This document shows positions 33,268 to 54,846 of a stretch of 64,000 nt of DNA, in pieces. The translations under genes were made by a program, and so were the position numbers. Each line of letters begins with the position of its first letter. Positions within the stretch are counted from its first letter, which is position 1. Source of the DNA: Bacilli bacterium (GTDB lineage: Bacteria > Bacillota_I > Bacilli_A > RFN20 > CAG-826); NCBI GenBank assembly GCA_017445245.1, contig JAFSUM010000016.1, forward strand, positions 1 to 64,000, in the 5' to 3' direction. Under the pieces are notes generated by a model. It made no database searches and was not told the DNA's origin. It saw nothing but the letters and a program-made list of their open reading frames with translations.

Positions 33268-33309
33268 TCTGCGCATTTCATTTTGCGCAACCACCCCACG
33301 GCATTACAA

Positions 33310-33368: not shown

Positions 33369-36300
33369 TTAATCGTCTTTTCCGATTTGGGCGTTATGGG
33401 TACGGACCGTATCGACCAAGACGGCTTTTTCAAGCGGCTGGTAGAAATAGAAGCCCTGCATATCAATCTTCGGATTGATTTGGAGAAGCAGGTTGTACTG
33501 GTCGATGTTTTCAACACCGACGACGGAGGTATCGATGCCCTTCTCCATCGCTTCCTGTAACAAGGCCTGTAGGGCGGAGAAACGGTTACGATCGACGTCG
33601 ATATTGTGGACGAGATTGCGGCTGACCTTAATTTGAGTAAAGCCAAGGCGAGAGAGGTCATCCATTGAGAAGTTCGAGCCGGTGTATTGGTCGATGACCA
33701 GCGGAATCTGGAAACGCTTGAGCATATCCGTGGCTTTCCTAAACTCTTCGAGATGGTTCGCGACATCGCGTTCCCCGATTTCAAAGGAGAGGAAACCATG
33801 AGGAAGATTTGCTTCTTTGATAAAGGATTCAAAGAACCCCTCAAACGTCGGATCGGCGAACAAGGAGACGTCGGTATTAAGACCAAGGCGCGTAAAGCCC
33901 ATCTGTTTGAGCGTGGCCGCACCGATAGAGGAATAGAAAGACGAGACGTAACGGAGCAACGCTTTGGTGATGGTCGGGATCTTTCCGTTCTCACTCGCGA
34001 CGCGAACGAGCTCATCCGCGAAGAAGACGATGTGGCGTTGTTCGTCTTGGATACGAAGAAGGATTTCAGCACCAAAGATACGCTTGTTTTTGCCGTGGAC
34101 GATCGGTTGTAACAAAACGTGGAAGGTCTCTTCGCCAAACTGTTGGTCGATGACTTGGAGCATGAATTCCCTACGAGACGCAGGACGCGTGTAAGAGGAA
34201 TCGTCGAAGAAGATGTAGTCCTTCTTGGCCTCGCGCTTGCCGCGGGTAAACTCCACGCCGACATGACGGAGGAAGTCTTCCGCCGAGGCAAAGCCTTGCG
34301 GATAATGCATCGGGAGGTAGGTCAAGTCGAGGTCGTATCTCTTCTCGCGGTCATAGACGAGGTTCTTGGTCAATTTGAAGATGTCCTCGCAACGGTTTAG
34401 CACGTCGGTTTGACCATAAGAGGAGAAGAGGACGGCGAAAGTCTGTGGGTCATAAAGGTAAATGTTTTCAGCATGGCCCCAAACCCGTTTCATCGCATCG
34501 ACGAAGTTGCGGTAGATGAGCAACGTACCCTCGCTATGGTAGTCATTAACCAAGGCGGAGTGATTATCCACGCGGAGCAAAAGGATATACCCCGTGTCGC
34601 CGATTAAGTACTTGCCACGGAGATCTTCCACCAAGGTCGGGAAGGAGTTGACCAGGACGTCGTGATTGAAACGGTCGATGGCCACTTCGCCCGTCTTTTG
34701 GCGTTGCAAGAGGATGGTGGCGAGGCTTCCTAACTTCGAATTCAGCGTTAACGAAGACACGTAGTTCTTGTTTTTGATAAGACTCGTCTTCTTCTCACCC
34801 GTAATAAGGGGGCAATCCGGGCAGGGAGCGGATAAACCATAGAATGTCTTGTAACAAGGCGTATTGAGTTCCGATTTGGGGAAGACGCGGCGAAGTGACT
34901 GCGACATGCTACGCAACATATAGGAGCCCTTCTCGGTTTGATACGTACCGGAATCGGTATAGGTCAAAAGGGCATCTAAACGACGATCGGATTCCACGAC
35001 GTCTTCGATAATCTCCCCTATCACAAAGCTTGAGGTGAGGTGATAGGCGCAGGCGCATAAGGCTTCCTGAAGGTAGCTATCGAGCCGCAATCCCTCAGAA
35101 TAGCGGACCAGGTAGATGAAACCATGGGGCTTTCCTTCCTTCGTAAGCACGTAGAAGAAACCGCTTTGAATTCCATATTTATCCGCGTAACGGCCCATCG
35201 TCGGACCGCATAAGGTGCGCTTGGAAAAGAAATAAGAATGGTCGGGATCTTGGGCGCGGCTAAGTGTCTTGACCATCATGTCATCGACGGTTTGGCCGAC
35301 GCTAAAAAGCACACTCTTGCCGACCGAATCCTTGCAGACAAAGCCATTCACCTCGGGGTCAAAGGCGACGATACCAGCAGCTTCGAAACCAAATTCTTGG
35401 TCGATATCTTCCAAAAACGAGGCCACCATCTGGCGGATGTTCTCTTTGTTGGTGCGGGTCGCTTCGACTGCTTCGATGCGGCGTAAGAGTTTCGACATCT
35501 GGTTGAAATACATCGTGCTCTTGGCCGTGGAATCGGTTTTGATGTGGCGGCGGGAAGGCATGTAGATGTTGACCATCTTGCCCTGGCGCTTGGCATAACG
35601 GAGGTCTTGGAAGATCTCGTGGACCGAGGAGTACGGATACATGACCAGCGAATAACAGGCCGGAATCGAAACGTGCCCTTCGATGGTCTGTCTAGCGATG
35701 GAAAGGTTCGGGAGCATCAAATTCAGGTGATCGCAGATGGACGAAAGCGAATCGATGCGCGGGAGATAGAGGTAGATCGAACGGCGGTCATCTGGAAGGA
35801 TGAGAAGCGGGTTTTCGTATTCTTTAAACCGTTCCGCGAGAGCTTGAATAAGGCGGCGTAATTCCTGCTCGGGCAACGCTTCTTCCGTGTTCTCGTAGAA
35901 GATTTCGATGAAAGCATTTCTAAAGTTAAGTGAGATGCCGACGAGTTCGTGTACCACCGCTTTCACGGAATTCAACGTGACGGTATTGGGGTAGTCAGGA
36001 ACCCATTCTAGAGGCAAGGAAGAATAGTCGCGCTTTTCGTAAATAACGGTGACATTGCGGAGAGTTTCGCGCAAAGTATCGACTTCTTCGTTCAATTGCT
36101 TGAATTCGCTGATGGAGGATTCTGGATAGTTTTCTAGCCCAGCATCGCCGGTGTTGATGATACGGTAATTCTTCAGGGTCGTGCCGTAGAGACCATCGCG
36201 GTAATTACGGGTGATACGACGGATAAGATAAAGCGAGCCACCCAAAAGGAAGGCCACGTAAAGAAGCGTGACGACGATCATGACGATGAGGACGGCGCGG

Positions 36301-36428
36301 TTGTTGTCACGGCCATACCACGTGCCCATGACGATGATAAACGCCAATAGGCCAAGGATGGCGATGACGAGGGTAACCGTCGCGGCGACGATGGTATGCC
36401 TTAGGGAACGTTGATTCCGTTTCATCAT
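33369..36428 (-). CDS. membrane protein with degenerate GGDEF and EAL domains
   Basis: 1019 residues, last gene of the ten-gene operon. Two membrane helices (about 12-35 and 45-68) are followed by a GGDEF-like region (140-300), a GAF-like region (330-470), a Cys-rich PAS-like segment (CYKTFYGLSAPCPDCP, near 520), a second GGDEF-like domain lacking the motif (570-760) and an EAL-like domain (770-1010). In the EAL part, EAL reads EIL, DDFG reads DQYTG, the KxD motif reads KVS and the AEGVE Glu is lost, so it should not cut cyclic di-GMP. It may bind the nucleotide as a receptor. Overlaps the previous gene by four bases. Confidence 0.85.
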   Translation of the reverse strand: MMKRNQRSLRHTIVAATVTLVIAILGLLAFIIVMGTWYGRDNNRAVLIVMIVVTLLYVAFLLGGSLYLIRRITRNYRDGLYGTTLKNYRIINTGDAGLENYPESSISEFKQLNEEVDTLRETLRNVTVIYEKRDYSSLPLEWVPDYPNTVTLNSVKAVVHELVGISLNFRNAFIEIFYENTEEALPEQELRRLIQALAERFKEYENPLLILPDDRRSIYLYLPRIDSLSSICDHLNLMLPNLSIARQTIEGHVSIPACYSLVMYPYSSVHEIFQDLRYAKRQGKMVNIYMPSRRHIKTDSTAKSTMYFNQMSKLLRRIEAVEATRTNKENIRQMVASFLEDIDQEFGFEAAGIVAFDPEVNGFVCKDSVGKSVLFSVGQTVDDMMVKTLSRAQDPDHSYFFSKRTLCGPTMGRYADKYGIQSGFFYVLTKEGKPHGFIYLVRYSEGLRLDSYLQEALCACAYHLTSSFVIGEIIEDVVESDRRLDALLTYTDSGTYQTEKGSYMLRSMSQSLRRVFPKSELNTPCYKTFYGLSAPCPDCPLITGEKKTSLIKNKNYVSSLTLNSKLGSLATILLQRQKTGEVAIDRFNHDVLVNSFPTLVEDLRGKYLIGDTGYILLLRVDNHSALVNDYHSEGTLLIYRNFVDAMKRVWGHAENIYLYDPQTFAVLFSSYGQTDVLNRCEDIFKLTKNLVYDREKRYDLDLTYLPMHYPQGFASAEDFLRHVGVEFTRGKREAKKDYIFFDDSSYTRPASRREFMLQVIDQQFGEETFHVLLQPIVHGKNKRIFGAEILLRIQDEQRHIVFFADELVRVASENGKIPTITKALLRYVSSFYSSIGAATLKQMGFTRLGLNTDVSLFADPTFEGFFESFIKEANLPHGFLSFEIGERDVANHLEEFRKATDMLKRFQIPLVIDQYTGSNFSMDDLSRLGFTQIKVSRNLVHNIDVDRNRFSALQALLQEAMEKGIDTSVVGVENIDQYNLLLQINPKIDMQGFYFYQPLEKAVLVDTVRTHNAQIGKDD

Positions 36429-37165
36429 TCCTGCCCTCCCAAAAGATCGCTTCTTCCGATATCGCCGATCGTCGAGACAACAGCTTTACCAAGATCGATA
36501 TATTTCCGAAGCGTGGTCGCATATTCTTCGACGGTATAAGGCTCGTCGAGGAAGCGCGAGACGACCTTAACTCCAAGGAAGGGAACGTGACCGAAATGGC
36601 AGGCCACGGCAATGCCGCCCAAGGCATTATCCATGACGAGGTTATCGTTCGTTCCGAAGGCGCGGTCGCCACTTAGCATCACGTCGAGCTGCGAACGCGA
36701 GGCATAGGAAGAGTTCATAGAAACGTAGGTCGAATGATGGAACGAGGCATTGATACGTCTTTCGGCCTGCATCGAGAAATAACGGACGATGTCTTCCTGC
36801 GAGACGAAATAGGCCGGGCAGCCCGGAATCTGGCCTAGACGCGATTCGCATTCAAGCATCAAATCCACGTCGCCCGTAACCGTGTAACGCGAAATGGCAA
36901 TATCTCCGAGCTTCCAGTTTCTAGTAAGCGCGGTGCAGCGTCCGACCGCGAAGACGAGGATGACGTAATACTTATGGATGAGTTCGAGCGTCAGCATGCT
37001 CGAAACATAGTTGGAATAAACCCCTTCGACGAGGCAGACTTCCTGATTGAAGATGTTGCCGAAGACGGCGGGAAAGTGATCGAGAATCTTTTCTTCCCTG
37101 CGCCTGGTCATGACCGACTCGAAATAGAGTACGTCGTCATGGGTGGAACCGATGATGAGAATCAT
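36425..37165 (-). CDS. nucleoside-phosphorylase-fold protein lacking catalytic residues
   Basis: 246 residues with the PNP/MTAN fold: MILIIGSTHDD at the start, GDIAISRY in the middle and GGIAVACHFGHVPFLGVKVVS near the end, matching the family's EGAAIAHVC...VPF...ISD region. The catalytic Glu of MEGAA is replaced (DNALGG), the catalytic Asp after IS is Arg, and the N-terminal EEE is HDD. A nucleosidase reaction is therefore unlikely; a nucleotide-binding role beside the two EAL proteins is inference. Four-base overlaps on both sides. Confidence 0.75.
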   Translation of the reverse strand: MILIIGSTHDDVLYFESVMTRRREEKILDHFPAVFGNIFNQEVCLVEGVYSNYVSSMLTLELIHKYYVILVFAVGRCTALTRNWKLGDIAISRYTVTGDVDLMLECESRLGQIPGCPAYFVSQEDIVRYFSMQAERRINASFHHSTYVSMNSSYASRSQLDVMLSGDRAFGTNDNLVMDNALGGIAVACHFGHVPFLGVKVVSRFLDEPYTVEEYATTLRKYIDLGKAVVSTIGDIGRSDLLGGQE

Positions 37166-38706
37166 GAATGCCTCCTTCCTTCGAACGGGTTATCGAGCAA
37201 GAACTTGTCGTAAGCCTCCTTGGGGATGGCTTGCGAATAATAGAAGCCTTGGATGGTGTCGCAGTGGATCTTGCGAAGGATTTCGACTTCGGCCCTGTTG
37301 TCGACGCCTTCCGCGATGGCTTCATGGCCAGTCGCGCGGCAGAGCTCGATTATGGTCGCGACGATGTTCCTCGCCGCTTCGTCCTCGACGATGCCATCGA
37401 TGAACGATTTATCGATTTTGACGGCATCGAATGGGATTTTGCGTAAATTACCGATGTTCGAATAGCCGATTCCGAAGTCGTCCATCAAAACGCGGATGCC
37501 GTTTTCGCGGAGCTTTTTGATAATCGAGATGGAGAGGAATTGGTTCGCCTGCGAAGTGGTTTCGACGATTTCGACTTCGATGAGGCGCGGATCGATTTTG
37601 TACTGATGGATAGTGTCCATAATCTTGGAAAGGAAGTCCATGGAATAGAATTCGTAAAGGGAGAAGTTGATGGAGACCGGGATGACGCGACGTCCTTTGC
37701 GGATGGAGTCCGCGAGATCTTCGCAGACGTGCTGGAAGACATAGAAATCGAGCTCGTGAAGAAGGCCCGCGGCCTCGATACGGTCCATAAAACGACCCGG
37801 CCCGAGAACGCCGTAAATCGGGGACTCCCAACGGATGAGAGCTTCCGAAGAGACGAACTGACGCTTGGTGAGTGAGAACTTCGGCTGGTAGTAGACGACA
37901 AACTCGCCACGTTCATACGCCTGAACGACTTCTTTGACTTCGCTATTGTCCTTATGGCCACTGATTCTTTCATCGTAGAAGGCAATGGATTCGAAGGTGC
38001 GCTCTGCCTGTTTTCTAGCCGCGAGGACTTTGTCGATACATTCGTTAAGCGCCGCGTCCTGTGGGGCTTTGGCGATGCCGAAGAAGGGTTGGACGTAGAT
38101 GTGGTAATGCTTTCTTTCGAGAATGGAATAAATCTCGTCGCGGATGGAAACGGCGAGGTCGTTCACGTACTCTGAGTTGTGATTGAACACAAAGACCAGG
38201 AAGATGCCATGGTCAAAGCAGAAGACGTGGCGGTGCTTTTCGCTTCTAGGCGCACGGGCGATAAGCAGGTTCTTTAACGCCCCGGCGACCGTTAGATTCA
38301 AGTCGTTGATTTCATCGCCCGAAGCCGTGCTCTTGTCCGTAAACGAGGAAGGAGAAGCCGTGAAGGCCATGATGTAGTTTTCCTTTTTCGCAAAGCGGAA
38401 CGAATTGCGCTTGGCGGTGACCCTCTGCTGGAAAGCGTAAAGGTTGAAGAAATAGGATTCCGAGCCAAGCGAGTATTTGTTTTCCGTTTCAAGCGATTCG
38501 AAAATCGTACGGGAACGAAGATACGCGATAACGGTGTGGGTAAAAATGGCTGCGAAGAAAGCGTTGTAGACCACCATGGCGACCTGAAGCCAGTGCGAGA
38601 GATCCATGACGCCCGTCACGATAAGGACGACCGAAGCGATGATCGCGAGACTATAGACGATCGTGGCAGCGACCGCAAAAGCGAATAACCGTTTATGCCT
38701 TCCCAT
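37162..38706 (-). CDS. membrane-anchored EAL-domain cyclic di-GMP phosphodiesterase
   Basis: 514 residues: two membrane helices (about 8-32, 40-62), a GGDEF-like domain without the motif (75-240) and a complete EAL domain (255-505). All metal and catalytic residues of active EAL enzymes are visible: EALIRW, the Asn in SINFS, EIVETT, DDFGIG, KIDKSF, AEGVDN and QGFYYS. It should hydrolyse cyclic di-GMP to pGpG at the membrane. It lies downstream of a GEMM-I riboswitch in the same operon, so the enzyme that removes the signal may be induced by it. Overlaps the SipW-like gene by 14 bases. Confidence 0.93.
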   Translation of the reverse strand: MGRHKRLFAFAVAATIVYSLAIIASVVLIVTGVMDLSHWLQVAMVVYNAFFAAIFTHTVIAYLRSRTIFESLETENKYSLGSESYFFNLYAFQQRVTAKRNSFRFAKKENYIMAFTASPSSFTDKSTASGDEINDLNLTVAGALKNLLIARAPRSEKHRHVFCFDHGIFLVFVFNHNSEYVNDLAVSIRDEIYSILERKHYHIYVQPFFGIAKAPQDAALNECIDKVLAARKQAERTFESIAFYDERISGHKDNSEVKEVVQAYERGEFVVYYQPKFSLTKRQFVSSEALIRWESPIYGVLGPGRFMDRIEAAGLLHELDFYVFQHVCEDLADSIRKGRRVIPVSINFSLYEFYSMDFLSKIMDTIHQYKIDPRLIEVEIVETTSQANQFLSISIIKKLRENGIRVLMDDFGIGYSNIGNLRKIPFDAVKIDKSFIDGIVEDEAARNIVATIIELCRATGHEAIAEGVDNRAEVEILRKIHCDTIQGFYYSQAIPKEAYDKFLLDNPFEGRRHS

Positions 38707-39871
38707 CGTCTTTGTCCTCCTGCTTCACTTCTTTGGCTTCCTTCGCCGCTTTCTTCTCAGCCATAATCTGGGCGAGCATCTGCTGACGGAGGCGTTGCTT
38801 CTCTTCGTCGCTATAGCCGGCTAGGGCGCTTTTGTCTTCTTTGGGCGCTTCGGCCTTGGCTGGTTTTTCTTTCTTTTCCTTCGCGGGCTTTTCGCCTTTT
38901 TCCTGGGCGCGCTCGGCCATAATCTGCGCCAGCATTTGCTGACGGAGGCGTTGTTTTTCCTCGTCGCTATAACCGCTTAAGGCTTCCTTTTTCTCTTCTT
39001 TTTGTTCCGTTTCTGCAGGCTTGTTTTCCGATTCAACGGGTTTTTCGGCATTTTCTTCCTGCTGCTTTTCCGCTTTAGCTTTCTTCTTTTCCTCTAACAT
39101 CTGCAAAAGCATTTCCTGCTTGAGACGTTCGCGGTCCGCGTCGGAGATTTCGCCGACGGTACCACTACCCCCATTCGCGGTCGCTTCTTCAGGTTCTTTC
39201 AAGGTGCGGAAGATATCAATCGTGCTGGAGATGACTAAATAGAAAGCGGGAATCAGCAATAGACCGAATAGGCCCCAAGGAGAGGCGATGAATAAAAGAA
39301 CTTTACCAAGGGCATCACTATTGAGGATGACGGTGCCGAGGATATAACGCTCGTCGAGCACCTGATATTGGTTCGCCTTCCATTCCTCGGATTGGGTGTT
39401 GATACCAGCAACGACGAAGATATAACGTCCCTGCCCTACTTCTTTTGTGGTGTCTTCGTGAATTTCGCGGATACGGTGGGTCATCGGAACACCATAGTAC
39501 TTGCTGCGAGAGACAACGTTTGTCTGGTTGTTCAAAGTCGTGTCATCAGGCAAGAAAGCGGCGTATTGCTGGTAGGAAAACGTGATATCGATCGGAGCGG
39601 TCTTATCCGCGTTCCAGCGGGCAAAGATTTCCTTGGGATCCTGCTTTTGAGTCACGATGGCCGATTCGACTTTGTAATCGGGTTCCATAGAATCGGTTTG
39701 GACGACAAAGTTGCCGATGCCAAAGCGGAGTTGCTGGCCCCAGTTTTGGTCTTTGTGAACCATCGCATCGATTTGGGCGACCATAGCAAAGCAGAAAACG
39801 ACAGCGAGGATGCCAAAACCGACCCATTCAAGGATCTTACGCGTTTTGCTCTTCTCGCGGCGCTTCCTCAT
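38693..39871 (-). CDS. SipW-like signal peptidase I with repeat-bearing cytoplasmic tail
   Basis: 392 residues. TM1 about 13-34, catalytic Ser61 in TDSMEP, His132 in MTHRI (the Ser-His arrangement of SipW and eukaryotic-type signal peptidases), TM2 about 188-216. SipW enzymes process TasA/camelysin-type precursors, and six such precursors are encoded nearby. After TM2 is an unusual 170-residue Lys/Glu-rich cytoplasmic tail with three copies of a helical motif: ISDADRERLKQEML, and twice YSDEEKQRLRQQMLAQIM. SipW itself is about 190 residues. A related motif ends the small membrane protein at 49521. Four-base overlap with the upstream gene. Confidence 0.92.
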   Translation of the reverse strand: MRKRREKSKTRKILEWVGFGILAVVFCFAMVAQIDAMVHKDQNWGQQLRFGIGNFVVQTDSMEPDYKVESAIVTQKQDPKEIFARWNADKTAPIDITFSYQQYAAFLPDDTTLNNQTNVVSRSKYYGVPMTHRIREIHEDTTKEVGQGRYIFVVAGINTQSEEWKANQYQVLDERYILGTVILNSDALGKVLLFIASPWGLFGLLLIPAFYLVISSTIDIFRTLKEPEEATANGGSGTVGEISDADRERLKQEMLLQMLEEKKKAKAEKQQEENAEKPVESENKPAETEQKEEKKEALSGYSDEEKQRLRQQMLAQIMAERAQEKGEKPAKEKKEKPAKAEAPKEDKSALAGYSDEEKQRLRQQMLAQIMAEKKAAKEAKEVKQEDKDDGKA

Positions 39872-42800
39872 TGTTCATCCTTTCCGAGGACATCGTTCAT
39901 CATGTCTTCGAGCAGTTTCAATGCGCGGCGTAATGACAAACCCGAACGCACGCGTAAGAGAAGCGGCGTTTCGGCATACATTTTCTTGTCGGAAACGTCT
40001 TCAAACGGAAGGGTTGTGCCTTCAAAGTCCTTGGGATTCAAACGGAAATAGGCACGCAAGGTCTTACCAACGATGTTAAGTTTTAGATAAATGCCTTTGT
40101 GTTCGCCGTTGAGCTTAAAGGTATCGCCAAAATTCGAAATACGGGAACGGAGGCCAAATCCCAAAGCGGCTTCTTTGATCTGGTTATAGGCGTCTTTGAT
40201 ATCGTCATCTGCCTTTTCAAACTTCTCTTCGAAAGACTGACGTTCGATATTCGCAAGTGCGGCAAATCCACCCTGGCTAGGCGCTTCCGCTTCTTCTACG
40301 GACTCCTCACCCATCGGTTCGACGGGGAGAGGTACGGGTTCAGGAATCGGTTCAGGCTGAACTTCAGGAACAATTGCAGGTTCCTTCTTTTCTTCGATAG
40401 GCGTACCTTCTTCGGCTGGAACGGCGAGTTCGTCTTCGCTGACTGCACGCTTCGTAAGCGCTAAGGGATCAAGCATGTCTTCGAGAAGCTTGATGGCGCG
40501 TCTAATAGACAAGCCAGAACGCACGCGGAAGAGGAACGGAACCTCGGCGTACATCTTCTTGTCCGAAGCGTCCTCAAAGGGAATCGTGGACCCTTCATAA
40601 GCTTTTGGATCAAGTTTGTAGTAAGCACGTAAGGTCTTGCCGACGATGTTGAGTTTCAAATACACGCCTTTGTTCGCGCCGTTTAGCTTATACGTGTCAC
40701 CGAAATTGGAGAAACGGGAACGAAGGCCATAAGAGAGGGCCTCTTTACGGATTTCCATGTAGGCTGCTTTTAAATCCTCGTCTGCATTCGCGAATTTGGT
40801 GAGGAAGGGCTGTCTTTCGTAGGCATCCAAAGCCGAGCCTGCCGGAAGGACGGGGACGGCCTGAACGGGTTCTTCTTCGATCGGAGCAACGATGGGCAAA
40901 GGTTCCGGCTCGATATAGGGTTCGAATTCGGGAACGGGTTCAGTCTTCGCTTCCTGCGCGGCCTGGATAAGCGATTCGGGAAGAGGTTCTTCAAAAGGCT
41001 CGTTCTGTTCGGGCTCGGAAACAGGAATCGCCGCTTGTCCGGGAATTGGTAGAGGCGGAGGCGCGATGCGGTTGGCTTTGTCTTCGCGAGGCAAGGCGAG
41101 TTCTTCTTCGCTGACTTCGTGCGGAACGATGGCCAAAGGCTCCATCATGTCGTCGATGAGTTTGAGGGCACGCCTTAACGAAAGGCCCGAACGGACGCGG
41201 AAGAGGAACGGTACCTCGGCATAGGATTTCTTCTTGGAAGCATCTTCGAAGGGAATCGTAGAGCCCTCGTAGGCTTTGGGATCGAGGTTGTAATAGGCCT
41301 TGATGGTCTTGCCGACGATGGTGAGTTTGAGATAGACGCCGCGATTCTCGCCGGTGAGCTTGTACGTATCACAGGAATTCGAAAGGCGGGAATGCATGCC
41401 ATAGGAAAGGGCGTGGCGGCGGAGGGCCATATAGGCTTCCTTGAGTTCGGGATCGGCCCTGTCGTATTTCTGCACGAAGGTAAGGCGTTCGTAATCGTCG
41501 AGGGATAAGCCGCCTTTGTCGCCTTCGCTTTCCGCGGGAGCGGGCGCGATAAAAGGCACGGGCTCGATGGGTTTTTCTTGCTGTTCGCCTAGGATTTGCG
41601 GGAATTCGTTTACAAATGCAGAGGGTTTCTCCTTCTCGTCGAGCTCCACCGAATCCACATCGAAACGGCTTTGGTTCGGAATGAAGGTCGGACGGACTTC
41701 GTTGGGCCGCTCGTCCTGGGGTGGGATTTCAAGTTTCTCGCCCGTTTGGTCAAAGCCTTCATAACCATAGCCGAAGGAGGCCCTGGCAGAGCGGACGATT
41801 TCGGCGCGGATCTTGTTGAGCATGTCCTCTTCTTGCTGCGCGGCGATTTCTTCTTGGGCTTCCTGCAGCTTGATGCGGGCGAGTTCACGCTCCTCGATGA
41901 TCTTCTGGGCGTGCTTTTCGAAGCGCTCCGCTTCTTTTTCCTTGCGGCGAAGAAGGGCGGCTACCTCGCGGTCGAACTGTTTGAGATCGCGCCCTTGTCC
42001 GAGTTCCTGCGCATAATATTCGCGCTCGGCCGCGGAAGGGCGTTCTGGCAAATCTTTGTAACGGAGGGTTTCCAAGTACTGACGGTATCCCTCGTCGATA
42101 CGGACAAAGGAAACGGGGCCCTTTAGATAATTGCCATAGACAAACGATTCGTCATCTAGCGAACTGAGGATGCGGGGTTTGTATTCGCGGGCAAAGGTCT
42201 TGCCGTGGACGGATTTCGTCTGGCCCTGCACGGCGAGATAAGACGAGAAGAAGGCATAGTTCAACTTCGCCATCTCCGCTTCGGTGAGATCGCTATAACG
42301 TTCTTCAACGCGGAACTTAACGCCTAAACGCGTATAGGATTCGATGTAGCGATAGACGTCATAGCAGTGTTTGTATTTGACGTTTTTGCGGAGGATATTC
42401 GTTTTGACGATCGGGTTACGGACGTTATGGTCGGTCTTGAAAGCCTTCATAAACGGCGAGCCGTAATAGTAGGTCACGTATCGCCTGATTTCCTCGATGC
42501 GGGCAAAGGCTTCGTTATGCTTTTGGGCCATTAACGATTCCGTCTCGGTCGAAACGCGTACCTTGGTCTCGATTTCGATATCCGTCTTCCCCATGCGGGA
42601 TTTGTTCTTCATGTAGAGAACTTCTTCGTCGTGGAGAGAAGCAAATGCTTTCGCGAATTCGTAACGCTTCTCGATGAAGAGGACCAGCTTACGGATGAAG
42701 GTGGCGATGAAGCGGTTCTCGTAGGTGAAGATTTCGTCTTCGTTGGCGATGTTCAAAACCTTGGAGGGGATGACGTTGCCATAGTCGTCGATTTCCTTCA

Positions 42801-43119
42801 CGTACTGCGTATGCGAGGCAAGGTGCTGGATGGATACGCTGGTGGTCTTCCTGGCGAGTTCGACAGGCGCCAAATCGGCGACCTGCTTCGTAGTAAGGCG
42901 CGGGGCTTTGATGATTTCGCCTAGGTCATAAAGGACTTCTTCGATCTTGTCGATCCACGACAAATCGAAGTCCGAAGACTCCAGACGGTCCATGCGGAGA
43001 TACGTGTTTTTGCCATGCGAAAGAGCGTCGAGGACGATTCCCTCTTCGCCATTAGCGGTGAGGTTTTGCATCCGTTCGACGAATTTCGAATAGATTTTCT
43101 TTTCGTCGATCTCCGCCAT
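39868..43119 (-). CDS. DUF2357-like protein with three ~125-residue repeat domains
   Basis: 1083 residues, cytoplasmic. Residues 1-370 resemble the DUF2357 proteins that accompany McrB-like ATPases (ENRFIATFIRKLVLFIE, and NPIVKTNILRKNVKYKHCY), consistent with the AAA gene ten bases upstream. Residues 375-455 are a charged coiled coil. Then three copies of one domain occur at about 536-660, 760-884 and 950-1080, each with SYG-RSR-SN, YLKL-IVGKT-(K/R)AY, DPKAYEGSTIPFED and a final RSGLSLRRALKL. Similar repeats occur in clostridial proteins of unknown function. No PD-(D/E)xK nuclease motif was seen. Confidence 0.75.
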   Translation of the reverse strand: MAEIDEKKIYSKFVERMQNLTANGEEGIVLDALSHGKNTYLRMDRLESSDFDLSWIDKIEEVLYDLGEIIKAPRLTTKQVADLAPVELARKTTSVSIQHLASHTQYVKEIDDYGNVIPSKVLNIANEDEIFTYENRFIATFIRKLVLFIEKRYEFAKAFASLHDEEVLYMKNKSRMGKTDIEIETKVRVSTETESLMAQKHNEAFARIEEIRRYVTYYYGSPFMKAFKTDHNVRNPIVKTNILRKNVKYKHCYDVYRYIESYTRLGVKFRVEERYSDLTEAEMAKLNYAFFSSYLAVQGQTKSVHGKTFAREYKPRILSSLDDESFVYGNYLKGPVSFVRIDEGYRQYLETLRYKDLPERPSAAEREYYAQELGQGRDLKQFDREVAALLRRKEKEAERFEKHAQKIIEERELARIKLQEAQEEIAAQQEEDMLNKIRAEIVRSARASFGYGYEGFDQTGEKLEIPPQDERPNEVRPTFIPNQSRFDVDSVELDEKEKPSAFVNEFPQILGEQQEKPIEPVPFIAPAPAESEGDKGGLSLDDYERLTFVQKYDRADPELKEAYMALRRHALSYGMHSRLSNSCDTYKLTGENRGVYLKLTIVGKTIKAYYNLDPKAYEGSTIPFEDASKKKSYAEVPFLFRVRSGLSLRRALKLIDDMMEPLAIVPHEVSEEELALPREDKANRIAPPPLPIPGQAAIPVSEPEQNEPFEEPLPESLIQAAQEAKTEPVPEFEPYIEPEPLPIVAPIEEEPVQAVPVLPAGSALDAYERQPFLTKFANADEDLKAAYMEIRKEALSYGLRSRFSNFGDTYKLNGANKGVYLKLNIVGKTLRAYYKLDPKAYEGSTIPFEDASDKKMYAEVPFLFRVRSGLSIRRAIKLLEDMLDPLALTKRAVSEDELAVPAEEGTPIEEKKEPAIVPEVQPEPIPEPVPLPVEPMGEESVEEAEAPSQGGFAALANIERQSFEEKFEKADDDIKDAYNQIKEAALGFGLRSRISNFGDTFKLNGEHKGIYLKLNIVGKTLRAYFRLNPKDFEGTTLPFEDVSDKKMYAETPLLLRVRSGLSLRRALKLLEDMMNDVLGKDEQ

Positions 43120-43129
43120 AAACGCCTAA

Positions 43130-44662
43130 TTAGTTGTTCTTGATGAATCCGTCGATGGTGGCTTTGGCACGCGGGAAGGCATCCTTGCCATAGAGTTTGT
43201 CGAGGAAGGTGATGAGGCTCTTGAGTTCTTCTTTGAGGAAGGCGAGGTTCAGGGCTTCGAACTTCTTCAAGATCTTGTTGGTGAAGATGAAGTCAAAGCC
43301 ATCGACTTCGCGGCCACCGCAGCCGACATAGACCGGGATGAAGGATTCGAGTTGCTTCATGATACGGTTACCGAAGGCGAGCTTGAATTTCTTGATGACG
43401 TAGTTGTCGAGTTCTTCAAATTTCTGGAGCATGCTCTCGGAAATCGGGTGCTGACGAATAGAGTCGTCATAGAGCCCGCGGATCTGCGTGTACGGGATGA
43501 CCATCGGGTCTTGGCTAGCGGCTTGGAAGGGACGGCCCTTGTCATCGAAGAAGAGAGTGATGGCACGGTCATAGACCTTATCGGCGATCGTGAAGGTCGA
43601 GTCGTCGTTATTCGCGGTGCCGAAGAAGACGACGTTCTGCGGGATGGAAAGTTTGCCGCCTTTAAGTAAGACGGGGTCGCCTTCGATATTGGTCGGGATG
43701 AGGTCGATTTCCCACGCCGAGGTATCGCGAAGTTCCATGATGGAGAGGAACTCGGCGAAGTAGTACTCGATACGGGCGAGGTTCATTTCGTCGAGGGTGA
43801 TGACGACGAGGTCTTTGCGGTATCCGACGCCATAGAGAGCTTTCAAGAATTCGGATTCGTTGAACTTCTTTGTGAATTCGTTGTAATAACCAAGCAATTC
43901 GGAGCGGTCTTTCCAAGAAGGCTGGACCGGGATAAGCGCGGCTTCCGAGCCGAAGAAACGGCCGAGGGCGAATGCCAACGAAGTTTTACCAGTACCGGAG
44001 ATACCTTCGAGGATGATAAGTTTCGAGGCCGCCATACCAGCGAAGAGTTCGCGTACGACGTCCATACGGTAGTAGAGGCCTAACTGCGATGCCGCGAAGT
44101 TACGGAAGGCATTGCAGAGTTCTTCAAGTGATAAGCCAGGGCGATAGGGAATATCCATGTCGACGCCGCGGTACTTGGCATCGACAGTGGCGAGTTTCGG
44201 GAAGCGGCTCGCGGCGGCTTCGGTAACGACTTCGCCTTCTTGGCCTTCCCCCGCTTCTTCGCCGGTCTTAAGGCCCATGTAACCGACTTTGAGGTTCAGG
44301 ATCTTATCGCGTTCCTGGGTGGCCATGTAGAGCTCGTAGTTGAGGCGTTCGACCTGGCGGCGGAGTTCTTCTTTGTCGAGCTCGCGGCGGACGAAACGGA
44401 TGTACTTACGGAGCAAGATGAACAGGAAGAAACAAATACCGCCGATAAGGGCGATGAACAAAATCAGGAACAAGACCCAGAAGAACCAGCCCCAGAAACC
44501 CCAATCGGGTGCCTGCGAGGCAACCGTGAGCATGGAGTGGTAGTCCCCAAAATTGGAGGGAACGTCAGACCAGGGTGGTACAAAGGTTTTCGTGAAAAAC
44601 CTTCCCACGTCGGTGAAGAAGCGGATGATCATCTCCCGCAAATATTCAAAGTAAGCTGTCAT
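43130..44662 (-). CDS. membrane-anchored McrB-like AAA+ ATPase
   Basis: 510 residues. One or two hydrophobic segments (57-86) followed by positive charges anchor it with the ATPase inside. A coiled coil covers about 88-125. The AAA+ domain has Walker A GISGTGKT (220-227), Walker B VVITLDEMN (286-293) with the McrB/MoxR-type MNLARIEYYFAEFL, and a sensor FFGTANNDDS. Related ATPases act in McrBC restriction or as MoxR-type chaperones. Here it sits among surface-protein and signal-peptidase genes and overlaps the upstream gene by four bases, so a role in secretion or assembly is more likely than DNA restriction (inference). Confidence 0.88.
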   Translation of the reverse strand: MTAYFEYLREMIIRFFTDVGRFFTKTFVPPWSDVPSNFGDYHSMLTVASQAPDWGFWGWFFWVLFLILFIALIGGICFFLFILLRKYIRFVRRELDKEELRRQVERLNYELYMATQERDKILNLKVGYMGLKTGEEAGEGQEGEVVTEAAASRFPKLATVDAKYRGVDMDIPYRPGLSLEELCNAFRNFAASQLGLYYRMDVVRELFAGMAASKLIILEGISGTGKTSLAFALGRFFGSEAALIPVQPSWKDRSELLGYYNEFTKKFNESEFLKALYGVGYRKDLVVITLDEMNLARIEYYFAEFLSIMELRDTSAWEIDLIPTNIEGDPVLLKGGKLSIPQNVVFFGTANNDDSTFTIADKVYDRAITLFFDDKGRPFQAASQDPMVIPYTQIRGLYDDSIRQHPISESMLQKFEELDNYVIKKFKLAFGNRIMKQLESFIPVYVGCGGREVDGFDFIFTNKILKKFEALNLAFLKEELKSLITFLDKLYGKDAFPRAKATIDGFIKNN

Positions 44663-45729
44663 TCGTAAGCCTCCCTTAAAATTTTGAATTGTAGTCCAGC
44701 CAAGAAGGACGCGCCCATGACCGCGTTAACGCAGTCATGGTCCCATCCTTCGAGGTAAATGGTGAATTGAAATGCCTTCGGGGTGTCGCGTTTTAGATAC
44801 ACCGCAAAAGGATTATTCTCGACGTGAGGATCGTCGGATAAATCGCTTAAGGCAAGCGAAGGCTCGGCCTTAAATTTCAGGCCCGCATCCGCGGAGGCCT
44901 GCGCATCGAACATGCACGTAAACGCATGATGACCCGCGTTGAAGCTCGTCGGCTCTCCCACCACAGGGATAGCTTTCTCGGTCGGCTCGGTATAACGGAT
45001 GAAACTCGCATCGTTATATTCGCCGTAAATCACTTCACGGGATATTCCATTTTGATCGACGTAGGAATCGAAGTACTCGTCTTTGAACGTATCGAGAACG
45101 CCGCCGTAATAAGTCATTCCTTCCTTGGTGGGATCGAGGATGAAATATTGATCGTCGTCCATGAAATAAAACGACATACGGGATGCATTATTGATTTGGT
45201 TGAGGCGGTTATAGATTTCCTCTTCCGTCCAGTTTTTGTAGAGGGTCGTTCTCGCGAGCTCGGCGGCCGTGCGCCTATTCGCGAGTTCGTACGCGCGCAC
45301 ATAAGAAAAATCGCGGTCGAGCGTAACATACACGTCGTCGTCGGATTTTAGATAGAGCGTCTGGGTGAAAAAGCCCGTGGTGATTTTATCGGGTGGGTAG
45401 GGTTTGCCGGTGGATGGAGTGTAGTAGCCGCGGTACTCGTAAAACTCGGGAAGCTTGGTCCCATCACGCCACCTGGATTCGAACATCGTCGACACGGGAT
45501 AGAACTTTCCATGCATCGGATTTAGGTCAGATGTGCCGAGTTCACTGACATATTCCCCGTCAATTTCGGTGGAAATAAGGAGGTTGTGTTCGGTTTTTAG
45601 TTTGACTTCGAGGTTCTCAACGGCTACCGAAGACGAGGAAACATACCATGCTAACGAGGTCGAAAAAGAGGCGGCCGTCAAGGCGGTTAGACCAATCAGC
45701 ATTGCCAAAACCCAACCCTTCCGTTCCAT
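44659..45729 (-). CDS. SipW-type surface protein with YLEGWD C-terminal motif
   Basis: 356 residues. The N terminus has a SipW-type signal: a hydrophobic stretch ending in STSLAWYVSSSS, as in TasA/camelysin precursors. The mature part is acidic, rich in Tyr and Asp, and ends with FTIYLEGWDHDCVNAVMG...FLAGLQFKI, a motif shared with the next two upstream surface proteins. No enzyme motif is seen. Probably secreted and attached or polymerised outside the cell after cleavage by the SipW-like enzyme of the operon. Confidence 0.8.
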   Translation of the reverse strand: MERKGWVLAMLIGLTALTAASFSTSLAWYVSSSSVAVENLEVKLKTEHNLLISTEIDGEYVSELGTSDLNPMHGKFYPVSTMFESRWRDGTKLPEFYEYRGYYTPSTGKPYPPDKITTGFFTQTLYLKSDDDVYVTLDRDFSYVRAYELANRRTAAELARTTLYKNWTEEEIYNRLNQINNASRMSFYFMDDDQYFILDPTKEGMTYYGGVLDTFKDEYFDSYVDQNGISREVIYGEYNDASFIRYTEPTEKAIPVVGEPTSFNAGHHAFTCMFDAQASADAGLKFKAEPSLALSDLSDDPHVENNPFAVYLKRDTPKAFQFTIYLEGWDHDCVNAVMGASFLAGLQFKILREAYE

Positions 45730-45731
45730 GG

Positions 45732-46862
45732 TTATACCCTGTTGATCTGGAAGCGTAAGCCAAGGTTAAAAGAGTGACCGATTTCGTTATCAATGACGGC
45801 ATGGTCCCATCCTTCTAGGTAAATAGTTACGTCAAGGCGCGCAACCGCATCAGCTGTGTTGCTGGTGCGCGTAAGAGGCGTGCCGCCGCTGAGGTTGCCA
45901 TCGCCATCGTCAGTCGGTTTGATCGTCTCAAGTGTCTGATATTGGGCTAGTTTCGGCGCACAGGCGGTTACGGCGGACGTGTTGTAATAATTCACGCCCT
46001 TCTTATGCTCGGCCACGAAAGTCGATTTCGCCGTCTGACCGGTCTGATTTACGTCATCGAAGACGCTAGGGTTATCAAAATCATTTTCCGCGCTGGCGAT
46101 ACCGGTAACGACCGGAGTATTCGTGTAATCCCCATAAATGATTTCGGTACCGTCGTCATCGTCATAGGCGCCATTCACGTCAAGATCCAGAGGGCCGGCA
46201 ACTTTCGTATAGCCGAGAACCGTCGATTCCGAAGAAGGATTCAAGACAAAGTCGTTGCTGCCTTCCGAAAAATAAAGGCGGACGGCTTCACGGATGTGTT
46301 CCGTTGAGCCAGAAGCGGCGATGTTGACGCCTGTAAGCCAAATATCGGCCTGCTTAGCATAGTTGCCGTTCGCATCGATGATGCGGAAAACAAAGGGGAC
46401 GTGCGAATAGTTTGCCGGGGAGGCGAGCTGTGTCATCAAAGGCGTGCCACGCACCGGCGAACGATACAAAGCAAAAGAGGTGCCGTCGTATTCGCGGGTA
46501 GTGACTGGTTTGAGCTCGTTTATCGCATACCTATTCTCTTTTATCAGGTAGGCCTGGATGATTTCAGAACTAAAACCAGAGCCGGCCTTAGCCCAATAAT
46601 ACTTGTAGCTCTCCCCTGCCACGTCTTCTACGGTCAGGTTAAAGCCACGGTCGTCACCATGATCATCTACGGTGAAATCTTGATCGCTGACTAGTCCGAT
46701 CTGCAATTGGATGGATTCGGCGACCGAGGTGCCACTGTAGGTGATTGCAACTCGGGTGGAGTATGCATACCAAGCGATACTACCGGAAATGGTACCGGCA
46801 AAAGCGGCGACAAGTCCCATGGACATCAAAGCGACAAGCGCACGACGTGTGGTCTTCTTCAT
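45732..46862 (-). CDS. SipW-type surface protein with YLEGWD C-terminal motif
   Basis: 376 residues from the ATG at 46862, which has AGGAGG nine bases upstream. Signal region GTISGSIAWYAYSTRV closely resembles that of the next upstream gene (GSISGTVAWFQYSTRS), so the two are related. The mature part is Ser/Thr/Asp-rich, and the C terminus reads VTIYLEGWDHAVIDNEIG...FNLGLRFQI. Function as a structural surface protein is inferred from the signal type and operon. Two bases separate it from the downstream gene. Confidence 0.82.
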   Translation of the reverse strand: MKKTTRRALVALMSMGLVAAFAGTISGSIAWYAYSTRVAITYSGTSVAESIQLQIGLVSDQDFTVDDHGDDRGFNLTVEDVAGESYKYYWAKAGSGFSSEIIQAYLIKENRYAINELKPVTTREYDGTSFALYRSPVRGTPLMTQLASPANYSHVPFVFRIIDANGNYAKQADIWLTGVNIAASGSTEHIREAVRLYFSEGSNDFVLNPSSESTVLGYTKVAGPLDLDVNGAYDDDDGTEIIYGDYTNTPVVTGIASAENDFDNPSVFDDVNQTGQTAKSTFVAEHKKGVNYYNTSAVTACAPKLAQYQTLETIKPTDDGDGNLSGGTPLTRTSNTADAVARLDVTIYLEGWDHAVIDNEIGHSFNLGLRFQINRV

Positions 46863-46903
46863 GCTAGTACCTCCTTTCCTAAAGTATACGTGTAACAAAA
46901 CCC

Positions 46904-46942
46904 GTGCGCGGGCAAAGTCGCGTATGCGGCCTTGCCCGGCAC
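46904..46942 (-). promoter_or_regulatory. intergenic hairpin after the second surface-protein gene
   Basis: In the 120-base gap, GTGC-CGGGCAAG (minus strand) pairs with CTTTGCCCG-CGCAC to give a strong GC-rich hairpin, followed by GGGTTTTG. It could stabilise the upstream mRNA or act as a partial terminator, making the first two surface proteins more abundant than the rest. A TATACT that could serve an internal promoter follows near 46883. Confidence 0.6.
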
Positions 46943-46982
46943 AAATTCGTTTTATGAAATCAAAGAATGATTCAAAAGCTGA

Positions 46983-48416
46983 TTAGTGATCAGCGTGGGC
47001 GTCAGCGCTGAAACGAACACCGACGTTGAACTGGGAACCAATGTACTTGGCAGCATCCCAGAGAGCGGACGGGGTTCCGCCAAGCTCTTTCCAACCTTCG
47101 AGATAAATCTTGAGTTCAACACGGAGGTTGTTGGTGGCGGAAGTCGCACCGATGGGCTGGCCAACGATGGCATAGGGATCAGAATCATCCGCAATGCCTT
47201 TGACAGCGGTCGCAACAGGGCTCAAGCCATAGGAAACCGCGGAATTGGTGTGCGTGTTGGCGGGAACGGTAACGACAAGGGTGTTGCCGTTATCGGGCGT
47301 GCCGGTCACGGCGATACCATATTGAGAGAGTTCGACATTTGTCGATTCAAGTTGCCAATGCTTTTCAGCCTGAACATAAGTGAAGGTGTAATCTCCGGCC
47401 GTCGTGCCGTTTTTGGCGAGGAACCAGTCCGTATCAACGGTCGGAGCGGAAAGGCCGGCACCAGAACCAACGGCAATCGTGGCGGCGTCGTGCTGGTGGC
47501 CATAAAGAATCTGGCCGCCCTTATCCCAAGCAAAATCGCCAAAGGTATCAATCACATCGTCTTTGTTCAAATCGAGAGTGCCATAAGTCTGAACGGCAAG
47601 ACCATCTTTGGAGAAGGTTCCGTAGTCGGACCAGTGGGCACCATCATCGGCGCTGGCACGGATGGCGACACGAAGAGCAGAAGTGATATCTTCTTTGCCA
47701 TCGACGGCCTTAAGAGCCATGTCGATTTTGGAGACATAGATGTTTTTCGCCAAAGTGGAAACAGAGGCTTCGCCGTCGACATCTTTGACACGAAGTTCAA
47801 GAGGAATAGTAACGAAGTCCGAGGTCTTGGCCTTCTTCCAAGAAGACATGCTCGGATACTGGTAGACGGGATTGCGATAGAGGTCACCAGCAATGGCGCC
47901 TTCCGCGAGTTCGCCGGAAGTGACCGGCCTAACGGTGTCCCAGGCGTCAGAGATGACGAGGATATATCCATTGGCAGCGGGGCTGGTGGGGGGAGTGATG
48001 CCATAGGTCGCGAGGTTCACTTCAGCGCCGTTGAAGAGCCACTTGGCTCCGTCATAGCTGAATTTGTACTCGCCACCATGGGCAAGCTGGGTGAGGAAAG
48101 TGGCTTGGGTAATGGTCACATCGGTTCCGCTGGATGCGCCAGGGGCAAAATACTCGCCCTTGACGGCCTGCAAAGCAGTTTTGATGGTATCGGAATTGAG
48201 GTCAGAAGCCCAACCGACTTCGGCACCTTGTCCGCTCTTATAGAGACGGATCTGAAGGTTTTCCGTGCAGTGGGTGGAGGCACCGGTGAAAGCAACGGTG
48301 CTACGAGTGCTGTATTGGAACCAAGCCACAGTGCCCGAGATGGAGCCGACAACGCCGGCACCAAGGGCCACGGTCATCATCGTGACCGCAACTTTACTGA
48401 AAAGATTAGTTTTCAT
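46983..48416 (-). CDS. SipW-type surface protein, major subunit candidate
   Basis: 477 residues. N-terminal KTNLFSKVAV then a hydrophobic segment with GSISGTVAWFQYSTRS, the SipW-type signal. The mature protein is rich in Ala, Gly, Thr and Asp, and includes two similar segments (GGEYKFSYDGAKWLFNGAEV... and GDYTFTYVQAEKHWQLESTNV...), each ending in a short YGI strand, which look like a duplicated beta unit. The C terminus is LKIYLEGWKELG...FNVGVRFS. Second gene of the riboswitch operon and followed by a hairpin, suggesting high expression. Confidence 0.82.
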   Translation of the reverse strand: MKTNLFSKVAVTMMTVALGAGVVGSISGTVAWFQYSTRSTVAFTGASTHCTENLQIRLYKSGQGAEVGWASDLNSDTIKTALQAVKGEYFAPGASSGTDVTITQATFLTQLAHGGEYKFSYDGAKWLFNGAEVNLATYGITPPTSPAANGYILVISDAWDTVRPVTSGELAEGAIAGDLYRNPVYQYPSMSSWKKAKTSDFVTIPLELRVKDVDGEASVSTLAKNIYVSKIDMALKAVDGKEDITSALRVAIRASADDGAHWSDYGTFSKDGLAVQTYGTLDLNKDDVIDTFGDFAWDKGGQILYGHQHDAATIAVGSGAGLSAPTVDTDWFLAKNGTTAGDYTFTYVQAEKHWQLESTNVELSQYGIAVTGTPDNGNTLVVTVPANTHTNSAVSYGLSPVATAVKGIADDSDPYAIVGQPIGATSATNNLRVELKIYLEGWKELGGTPSALWDAAKYIGSQFNVGVRFSADAHADH

Positions 48417-49221
48417 AAGCGTTAATATTAACTCCTAATTTAAGACTTGCTCCTTTTGGGGGGTCGCCAACGGATTGGGGGTCGTAACCTTCCAACCACA
48501 TGACTACCGTAACGCGACGCACATCGTTAGGCGCGAACATGGGGACGATATAGTCTGTCACCACTTCCGAGGATTTAAATTTCTCGGAGAGCGGGTGATC
48601 CTCGTCTTCAGTGTCGTTAAACGGATATTCAGCAACGAACTCCTGCATCGTCGGCGTGCCGTCGGCTTTGTAATTCACCTCGGCGGCCTCCTTTGCAAAG
48701 ACACTTACGTTCGAATGATCGTCAGGGTCACTCTTGTTGTCATAAATCATGACTCTGATGGTGTCTTCAAGCGATCGTCCATCAGACGCCGGCTTGTTCT
48801 CGACGATGTTGTAACTGATCTTGTATTGAGCAATGTTCGTTCCAACATTCTTAACGAAGAACGTGTATTTGAAGTAGTTGAAGGACGTGACTTCATTCGT
48901 CGTCGGGTTGCGATTCGCCCCATAGGTATACGGGGTGTCCTCGTTATCGAGGATGGTCGCATCGGGAAGACGTCCGTACGTCCACTCTTCGTAAGCAGGC
49001 AAACTTTCAAGACGAAGCAAGGACTGCGGATTATCAAACGTGGAGGATTCGCATAGTGCCAGGTTCACGTCGCCATTGTTGACGGTAACCGTGAATGTCC
49101 CAACGAATCGGCCAAGGAAAGCAACGATCGCGAATACCGAAACACCCATAGCTCCTATGGATGTGCCGATAGCCACGACACGCTTCCTTTTCCGTTTTTT
49201 CACGTAGTCGAGTTCGTACAT
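48406..49221 (-). CDS. SipW-type surface protein, first gene of the riboswitch operon
   Basis: 271 residues from the ATG at 49221. A GTG at 49251 is an alternative start; neither has an ideal ribosome binding site (AGGAG lies 14 bases before the ATG), so the start is uncertain. After a basic segment (KKRKRKRVV) comes a membrane segment ending FLGRFVGTFTVTV, the SipW-type signal pattern. The mature domain has TasA-like features (FFVKNVGTNIAQYKISY) and ends VVMWLEGYDPQSVG, a variant of the C-terminal motif of its neighbours. Overlaps the next gene by 11 bases. Confidence 0.75.
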   Translation of the reverse strand: MYELDYVKKRKRKRVVAIGTSIGAMGVSVFAIVAFLGRFVGTFTVTVNNGDVNLALCESSTFDNPQSLLRLESLPAYEEWTYGRLPDATILDNEDTPYTYGANRNPTTNEVTSFNYFKYTFFVKNVGTNIAQYKISYNIVENKPASDGRSLEDTIRVMIYDNKSDPDDHSNVSVFAKEAAEVNYKADGTPTMQEFVAEYPFNDTEDEDHPLSEKFKSSEVVTDYIVPMFAPNDVRRVTVVMWLEGYDPQSVGDPPKGASLKLGVNINAYEN

Positions 49222-49267
49222 AAACGATTTGCGCGCTCCTTTTTGGAGCACATTTGTCCCATTGAGA

Positions 49268-49307
49268 ATAAATAAACGCCAGTGCCTATCATCCAGTGTT
49301 ACTGGCG
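49268..49307 (-). terminator. riboswitch-controlled terminator
   Basis: On the minus strand CGCCAGT and ACTGGCG arms are followed by TTTATTTATT. The 3' arm region (AGGCACTGGC) can alternatively pair with GCCAGCTGCCT at the end of the aptamer, so terminator formation and aptamer folding compete. Confidence 0.7.
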
Positions 49308-49317
49308 GGATTTACTC

Positions 49318-49395
49318 CCTTAAGGCAGCTGGCTATCTATCTCTAGACCCTTTAGCTTTGCGTCGCCAGGTCGCCCTGGGTTTGCTTTTAGCTCG
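49318..49395 (-). ncRNA. GEMM-I cyclic di-GMP riboswitch aptamer
   Basis: On the minus strand the GEMM-I core is clear: AAAGCAAACC, a P2 stem CCAGG-GCGA-CCTGG with a GNRA tetraloop, GACGCAAAGC, AAAGGGTC and GATAGCCAGCTGCC. A promoter lies immediately upstream and a terminator just downstream. The 3' strand of the aptamer is also the 5' arm of an alternative terminator, so ligand binding should favour read-through. It precedes ten co-directional genes ending at 33369. Sequence match is strong; the ON direction is inference. Confidence 0.93.
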
Positions 49396-49400
49396 CGTTT

Positions 49401-49429
49401 AATATACACACCTGATTTTCGATTGACAA
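49401..49429 (-). promoter_or_regulatory. promoter of the ten-gene surface operon
   Basis: On the minus strand TTGTCA (49429-49424), a 17-base spacer and TATATT (49406-49401) form a good sigma-A promoter, placing the transcript start just before the riboswitch. Confidence 0.8.
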
Positions 49430-49472: not shown

Positions 49473-49508
49473 AAAGAAAGGCGCCCCACCTCATTCGGGG
49501 GCGCCTTT
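49473..49508 (-). terminator. terminator after the small membrane protein gene
   Basis: GGCGCCCC and GGGGCGCC form an eight-base stem with a ten-base loop and TTTCTTT follows on the minus strand. It separates this gene from the riboswitch promoter. Confidence 0.8.
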
Positions 49509-52233: not shown

Positions 52234-52298
52234 ATTTGTTTTCGCCCAATCATCATACCACTTTAGGAAAAGCGCGGGCAAACGCGTACGTACGGATA

Positions 52299-54833: not shown

Positions 54834-54846
54834 GAAAAGAACGAAC

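Follow-up and report, generated by a model that had tools for sequence, protein, structure and literature searches.

The 64,000-nucleotide stretch analysed here (the window; contig JAFSUM010000016.1 of the Bacilli assembly GCA_017445245.1) carries a single-strand operon of ten genes, which is led by a riboswitch of the GEMM-I (cyclic di-GMP-I) class and has a gene for an EAL phosphodiesterase (PDE) in eighth place. We consider it likely that this riboswitch is an ON switch driving both surface proteins and the phosphodiesterase, and that the arrangement represents a negative feedback on cyclic di-GMP (c-di-GMP). Such a loop had been proposed in an initial annotation of the same DNA. Its polarity, the co-transcription of the EAL gene and the competence of the enzyme are supported by sequence and comparison, while the ligand, a sufficient rise in phosphodiesterase and a resulting pulse or homeostat are what we infer.

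The proposed mechanism involves two alternative folds of the leader. Without ligand, the 3' strand of aptamer helix P3 would pair with the leader tail preceding a U-tract, and an intrinsic terminator would form. When stabilised by c-di-GMP, the folded aptamer would tie up this strand, leaving the U-tract free to pair with an A-rich strand, and transcription would continue through four secreted surface proteins, a pair of AAA ATPase and repeat protein, a SipW-like signal peptidase and the membrane EAL phosphodiesterase. High c-di-GMP would thus give rise to a surface structure and the signal-removing enzyme from one transcript, and the negative feedback would limit how strong the surface-building state becomes or how long it lasts. 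The relatives may add a second loop, with the same aptamer class as an OFF switch before a diguanylate cyclase gene.

The source genome is a 1.35-Mb draft, 74% complete. It was compared with all 31 genomes of the same-genus set and with a named-genome set of 80 loci, which were retrieved via the AAA protein (gene 5). Aptamers in the relatives were located with a purpose-built covariance model, a regular expression having missed some leaders, and the continuity of operons was deduced from gene spacing.

Anatomy and polarity of the operon leader

The aptamer was found by Rfam cmscan at 49396-49321(-) with 53.5 bits (RF01051, E 1.2e-7), within 3 nt of the position 49318-49395 that had been assigned to it previously. 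The window contains one more c-di-GMP-I riboswitch, at 54734-54809(+), with 61.5 bits; both exceed the gathering score of 35 bits and span model positions 1-87, i.e., they are full-length members of the family. The Rfam scan revealed no others in the source genome, which is incomplete. Immediately 5' of the operon aptamer, a promoter scan detected a sigma-70-like promoter, TTGTCA-17-TATATT (49401-49429(-)), agreeing with the consensus at 10/12 positions. The operon is separated from the upstream genes by the predicted terminator of the preceding gene, AAGGCGCCCC..GGGGCGCCTT followed by TCTTT (49478-49507(-); core hairpin 49500-49484 in the terminator scan).

Folding and the Rfam alignment indicate that the 5' arm of the operon terminator, GCCAGCTGCCT (49333-49323(-)), covers the 3' strand of P3, which falls at CC-AGCU in the alignment. 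Since the two uses of this strand are mutually exclusive, terminator and aptamer cannot coexist. The 3' arm, AGGCACTGGC (49287-49278(-)), was recognised by folding and by comparison of leaders; it pairs with the 5' arm, leaving one base bulged out, and has GTTTATTTATTCTC behind it. In RNA letters the helix reads GCCAG.UGCCU : AGGCA.CUGGC, with the U-tract just 3' of it. This U-rich tract, TTTATTTATTCTC (49276-49264(-)), ends the terminator and also constitutes strand a', the partner of the A-rich strand a, GGGAGTAAAT (49319-49310(-)), located 3' of the aptamer. The a:a' helix, recognised by covariation in relatives and expected in the read-through state, crosses the terminator helix, and its hairpin has no U-run behind it. 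The leader as a whole folds more stably than its shuffles (z -3.05). In stepwise folding, P2 and P3 are present until the 3' arm CUGGC emerges, and are then displaced by the terminator. The aptamer decides between the two alternative structures. An intrinsic terminator arises solely in the fold that disrupts the aptamer, and therefore the leader has the anatomy of an ON switch (attenuator), its terminator stem and U-tract being incompatible with the aptamer.

Comparison of leaders agrees with this assignment. The pairing of the aptamer strand with the tail was significant at p<=0.05 in a shuffle test for 13 of the 21 operon leaders of relatives, all 13 with a U-rich tract, and for 35 of the 47 distinct operon leaders of the named genomes (U-tract in 30 of those 35). 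Among leaders of the window type the terminator helix is kept in 23/24. The pairing between aptamer and tail, pointed out in the initial annotation, is real, with a single bulge. The a:a' helix changes its sequence among leaders while the pairing persists: in window-type leaders it amounts to -11.5 kcal/mol within a leader vs -6.5 kcal/mol across leaders, and in a second clade -12.6 vs -8.5 kcal/mol, with 0/5000 permutations as good in either case. The ON polarity is thus well supported by mutually exclusive helices and by covariation. Two sets of leaders speak against it: L062 has neither the terminator helix nor a U-tract, and L181-L183 retain the pairing without a U-tract.

The opposite polarity, in which c-di-GMP would favour termination and the tail pairing would be an antiterminator, has to be considered because the class I switches of C. 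difficile are uniformly OFF (PMC6366702) and because an alternative hairpin using the same 3' arm, CGCCAGU:ACUGGCG, forms in the window leader if the aptamer fold is imposed. This hairpin is not conserved, however; most relatives place its 5' strand into a small local hairpin which differs in sequence from leader to leader (CCAAU:AUUGG, CAACG:CGUUG, CCAG:CUGG), and we rejected it as the true terminator of the window leader. Moreover, it is the helix involving the aptamer strand that adjoins the U-tract, the a:a' hairpin lacks a U-run, and OFF-type platforms of the same genomes have a different look. From the position of the U-tract and the contrast with the OFF-type leaders, OFF polarity was rejected for the operon, and we regard it as very unlikely. 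The operon leader is best read as a transcriptional ON riboswitch, for which ligand-dependent read-through is predicted.

Three leaders (L131, L133 and L179) have two copies of the aptamer's 3' strand: the first, ending GCCAGCAACCTCA, makes a small terminator of its own, and the second, GCCAGTTGCCT, feeds the usual one.

OFF-type leaders before diguanylate cyclase genes of sister genomes

In 13 leaders from sister genomes the same aptamer class precedes a gene of about 500 codons, nearly always an intact-GGDEF diguanylate cyclase (L066, L087, L098, L101, L102, L103, L105, L106, L109, L110, L111, L114 and L115; the L110 locus is cut by a contig end). Here the terminator lies wholly 3' of the aptamer and contains GCTTTGCG, a sequence able to pair with the aptamer core CGCAAAGC. 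This core-complementary 7-mer occurs in 9/13 of these leaders vs 0/58 others (Fisher p 1e-8), and where it is present the duplex of core and terminator is predicted at -16 to -27 kcal/mol. Because the folded aptamer leaves the terminator free, these leaders are of the OFF type. They share the logic of Cd1 (flgB) and the other class I switches of Clostridioides difficile (PMC6366702, PMC9262584), in which terminator and aptamer coexist and the antiterminator uses an aptamer strand. The window operon resembles the latter in aptamer class, transcriptional attenuation and Gram-positive host, but its polarity is opposite to that of Cd1.

Eight genomes have both an operon ON leader and a diguanylate cyclase OFF leader; in the window's own incomplete genome the Rfam scan detected no leader of the second kind. 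To judge from these leader sequences, within the genus c-di-GMP should shut a synthase gene off and turn a hydrolase gene on, forming two negative loops.

Nucleotide 20 and the identity of the ligand

The feedback hypothesis is weakest with respect to its ligand. Nucleotide 20 (in Vc2 numbering; it immediately precedes P2) marks, as G, the c-di-GMP-selective subtype of GEMM-I and is G in the Rfam consensus, but it is A in both window aptamers (position 49386 in the operon leader), which weighs against our interpretation. The same base is A in 18/21 operon leaders and G in 13/13 diguanylate cyclase leaders, while in the larger set of orthologous operon leaders G20 occurs in 11/47. In Geobacter, A20 was linked to selectivity for 3',3'-cyclic GMP-AMP (cGAMP), and the A20G replacement turns Gmet_0970 from cGAMP to c-di-GMP (PMC6456294). 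By our own alignment, nucleotide 20 corresponds to A14 in the cGAMP riboswitch (PMC6274999).

The A20 aptamer might therefore sense cGAMP, or both dinucleotides, in which case the EAL enzyme would remove a molecule different from the one sensed, resulting in cross-talk instead of a closed loop. Besides the distribution of A20 and the Gmet_0970 replacement, this possibility is favoured by a GGDEF domain of genome G023 (L214) with Ser at the position where Asp distinguishes ordinary cyclases from Hypr (cGAMP-making) GGDEFs; the window GGDEF_L (51157-52281(-)) has Asn there, a further point against c-di-GMP. On the other hand, two genomes that are 94% complete and have A20 operon leaders (G009 and G028, with L084 and L085) encode no more than two GGDEFs each, and all of these have the Asp that typifies ordinary cyclases. 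Seven GGDEFs of the window's own genome were read, with Asp in six, Asn in one and Ser or Thr in none; DncV-type cGAMP synthases were not searched for. The orthologous operon leaders, moreover, have either A or G, as if both served the same ligand. We therefore regard cGAMP sensing as unlikely. Since G009 and G028, with their A20 leaders, have only ordinary GGDEFs, c-di-GMP is the likeliest ligand of the window aptamer, perhaps with reduced affinity. Asn at the Hypr-distinguishing position was observed, in addition to the window GGDEF_L, in L209 (genome G002).

Given the different base in the two kinds of leaders, it is conceivable, although we would not put it above an even chance, that the Alloenteromonas group sets its c-di-GMP level via OFF switches with G20, presumably of high affinity, on a diguanylate cyclase gene and ON switches with A20, presumably of lower affinity, on the phosphodiesterase gene within the surface-protein operon. 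Synthesis would then cease before c-di-GMP reaches the level at which its destruction and the fibre output set in, forming an RNA-only set-point circuit. With nucleotide 20 as the difference between them, the two kinds of aptamer form a natural pair in which one may ask whether the base tunes affinity within one cell.

The EAL enzyme and its probable co-transcription with the operon

Gene 8 (37162-38706(-), 514 aa), which the initial annotation regarded as an intact EAL gene, the eighth of the operon, was confirmed in both respects. It matches Pfam EAL with 208 bits, and the catalytic residues E288, N347, E379, D409, D410, K430, E466 and Q486 are all present and invariant across 15 aligned EALs of the operon, i.e., the metal- and substrate-binding residues are complete. 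In the structure model (mean pLDDT 81), two N-terminal membrane helices are followed by a degenerate GGDEF fold and by the EAL domain. Its nearest solved structures are MorA, PA0575 and MucR of Pseudomonas, including active GGDEF-EAL phosphodiesterases (MorA, MucR), and the EAL fold superimposes on the PDE domains of MucR and MorA with a TM-score of about 0.92-0.94 by target length. Gene 8 shares with these proteins the domain order, EAL fold and catalytic residues, but differs in its degenerate GGDEF part, two N-terminal membrane helices and an identity of 23-30%. Throughout the operons, the catalytic motifs have disappeared from genes 9 and 10 but are preserved in gene 8, which argues that its activity was specifically retained. 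These data support gene 8 as a predicted hydrolase, competent to destroy c-di-GMP.

Neighbouring genes of the operon overlap by 4-14 nt or are separated by 2-10 nt, so that the tight spacing (14 bases or less) noted earlier holds everywhere except at the junction of genes 2 and 3. That the EAL gene is co-transcribed is well supported by the conserved gene order and by overlaps of 4-20 nt between the SipW-like and EAL genes in nearly all relatives (14 nt in the window). Its own promoter, which would have uncoupled the enzyme from the riboswitch, was looked for, and the promoter scan found no such site on the operon strand near the gene; an internal promoter was thus rejected.

The exceptional gap, 84-120 nt depending on the start of gene 3, contains a strong hairpin with a weak T-tail (GTGCCGGGCAAG..CTTTGCCCGCGCAC, 46901-46942(-); z -4.8 by folding), which may diminish parts of the message or make them more stable. 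This hairpin counts against the feedback loop in so far as it may cut EAL expression; it might also give the fibre-gene part of the message a stability different from that of the rest. Analogous hairpins, variable in sequence and without a proper U-tract, occur in L131, L133, L135, L148, L149 and L179. Another difficulty is that the source genome encodes 6-7 EAL and 8-9 GGDEF domains, so that one more phosphodiesterase might matter little.

The gene order of secreted proteins, AAA, repeat protein, SipW-like peptidase, EAL and nucleosidase-like protein behind RF01051 recurs throughout the genus and also outside it, in a second genus of the same family (L047) and in further families of the order (L048 and L063, with a variant in L051). 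Of the named-genome operons that are visible from end to end, 40 have the riboswitch and an intact EAL, none has an intact EAL without the riboswitch, and four have neither. The arrangement is thus old and conserved across many species of uncultured gut Bacilli. In the four riboswitch-less paralogous operons (L180, L187, L195 and L200, the leader of L200 being cut by a contig end) the EAL slot is occupied by a membrane protein that has lost the EAL active site or lacks the EAL part; one of them (L195) belongs to the same genome as a riboswitch-led operon with EAL (L130). Two circumstances diminish the weight of this correlation. The riboswitch-less group with a dead EAL probably represents one or two evolutionary events, and we therefore treat it as a consistent contrast, not as a statistic. 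In addition, the three most distant riboswitch-led operons (L201, L203 and L204, including Paracholeplasma vituli) have no EAL in the slot, their EAL genes being located upstream.

Gene 8 may alternatively represent the operon's own c-di-GMP module, i.e., a local phosphodiesterase or receptor for the signal peptidase or the fibre machinery, co-transcribed for stoichiometry and with negligible global feedback. Its N-terminal membrane helices and overlap with the signal peptidase gene agree with such a role, as do the two catalytically dead relatives of nucleotide enzymes that follow it, suggesting a membrane complex, and the existence of other phosphodiesterases in the genome. However, an active site retained in full suggests that the protein is a catalyst and more than a sensor, and the riboswitch-less paralogues keep the other genes of the machinery while losing EAL activity; the active enzyme therefore goes with c-di-GMP control, not with the machinery. 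We consider a purely local role rather improbable, though less so than a cGAMP ligand, and prefer negative feedback on c-di-GMP.

Two further GEMM-I arrangements were encountered in these comparisons. Tandem aptamers about 150 nt apart precede the same kind of operon in distant Bacilli/Tenericutes (L201, at 5146 and 5295; L204, at 3665 and 3815), and in another family of the order an aptamer lies directly 5' of a single EAL gene of 744 aa (L056, 301-383).

Relation to known systems

Metabolite riboswitches usually control the metabolism of their own ligand. The c-di-GMP riboswitches were called unusual in that they rarely do so (PMC6366702). The lineage studied here would regulate c-di-GMP metabolism by riboswitch in both directions, removal being ON and, in sister species, synthesis OFF, and RNA-level feedback on a second messenger becomes directly testable with two short leaders. 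Our literature search, whose coverage excluded many subscription papers and preprints, yielded no account of this operon or of a feedback loop made by a c-di-GMP riboswitch 5' of a phosphodiesterase.

The closest analogue is the pilM GEMM-I switch of Geobacter metallireducens (PMC9262584), which is likewise a transcriptional ON switch of surface structures with aptamer and terminator competing for one strand. It differs in its ligand (cGAMP), in controlling pilus genes and in having no phosphodiesterase in the operon as described (PMC9262584); the window operon has in addition the covarying helix that pairs the U-tract.

The gene content resembles the tapA-sipW-tasA operon of Bacillus subtilis in its secreted proteins with a hydrophobic signal and its SipW-like peptidase, but the window genes have no match to the TasA/camelysin family. 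To our knowledge, the riboswitch, the AAA pair and the EAL gene are absent from the B. subtilis operon.

Other genes of the operon and the second riboswitch

Primarily, this is an operon for surface proteins. Its first four genes encode secreted proteins: gene 1 (48406-49251(-), a secreted or surface protein with the likely start ATG 49221), gene 2 (46983-48416(-)), gene 3 (45732-46898(-), probable start ATG 46862) and gene 4 (44659-45729(-)). SipW-type signal-like N-termini occur in several of them, for example GSISGTVAWF in gene 2 and the same signal type in gene 3. None of the four matches Pfam or NCBIfam, TasA/camelysin included, and membership of that family was rejected; the label "TasA-like" would refer only to the signal-like N-terminus and the neighbouring peptidase gene.

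Gene 5 (43130-44662(-)) encodes a membrane-anchored AAA ATPase (weak AAA_5 match in Pfam), the best conserved gene of the operon, and gene 6 (39868-43119(-)) a large repeat protein without a Pfam match, which is its partner in all relatives; the two are always paired within the surface-protein operon. The SipW-like signal peptidase of gene 7 (38693-39871(-)) matches NCBIfam SipW below the cut-off (E 9e-7, 28.6 bits against 190). Behind the EAL gene, gene 9 (36425-37165(-)) encodes an MTA/SAH-nucleosidase-like protein without the conserved catalytic motifs, which always adjoins the EAL gene in the window and relatives and is a possible nucleotide sensor. The product of gene 10 (33369-36428(-)) is a large membrane protein whose EAL domain is degenerate and presumably inactive. 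A terminator recognised by eye, GCGCCC..GGGCGC TTTTG (33307-33335(-)), closes the operon.

The second riboswitch of the window, also with A20, precedes a small secreted protein, a 1424-aa surface protein (55665-59939) and a diguanylate cyclase with an intact GGDEF motif (open reading frame 59884-61176), which together occupy 54832-61176(+). Its putative terminator pairs GCCAGTTGCCAA (54797-54808) with TTGGGAGCTGGC (54816-54827) before TTTTTT; the T-run touches the start codon, and a GGGAG stretch resembling a ribosome site lies within the terminator arm. By this anatomy the second switch, too, is predicted to be ON. The GGDEF gene behind this type of leader is not conserved in the relatives looked at; in the window, it forms together with the switch a possible positive feedback, opposite to the negative one of the first operon.

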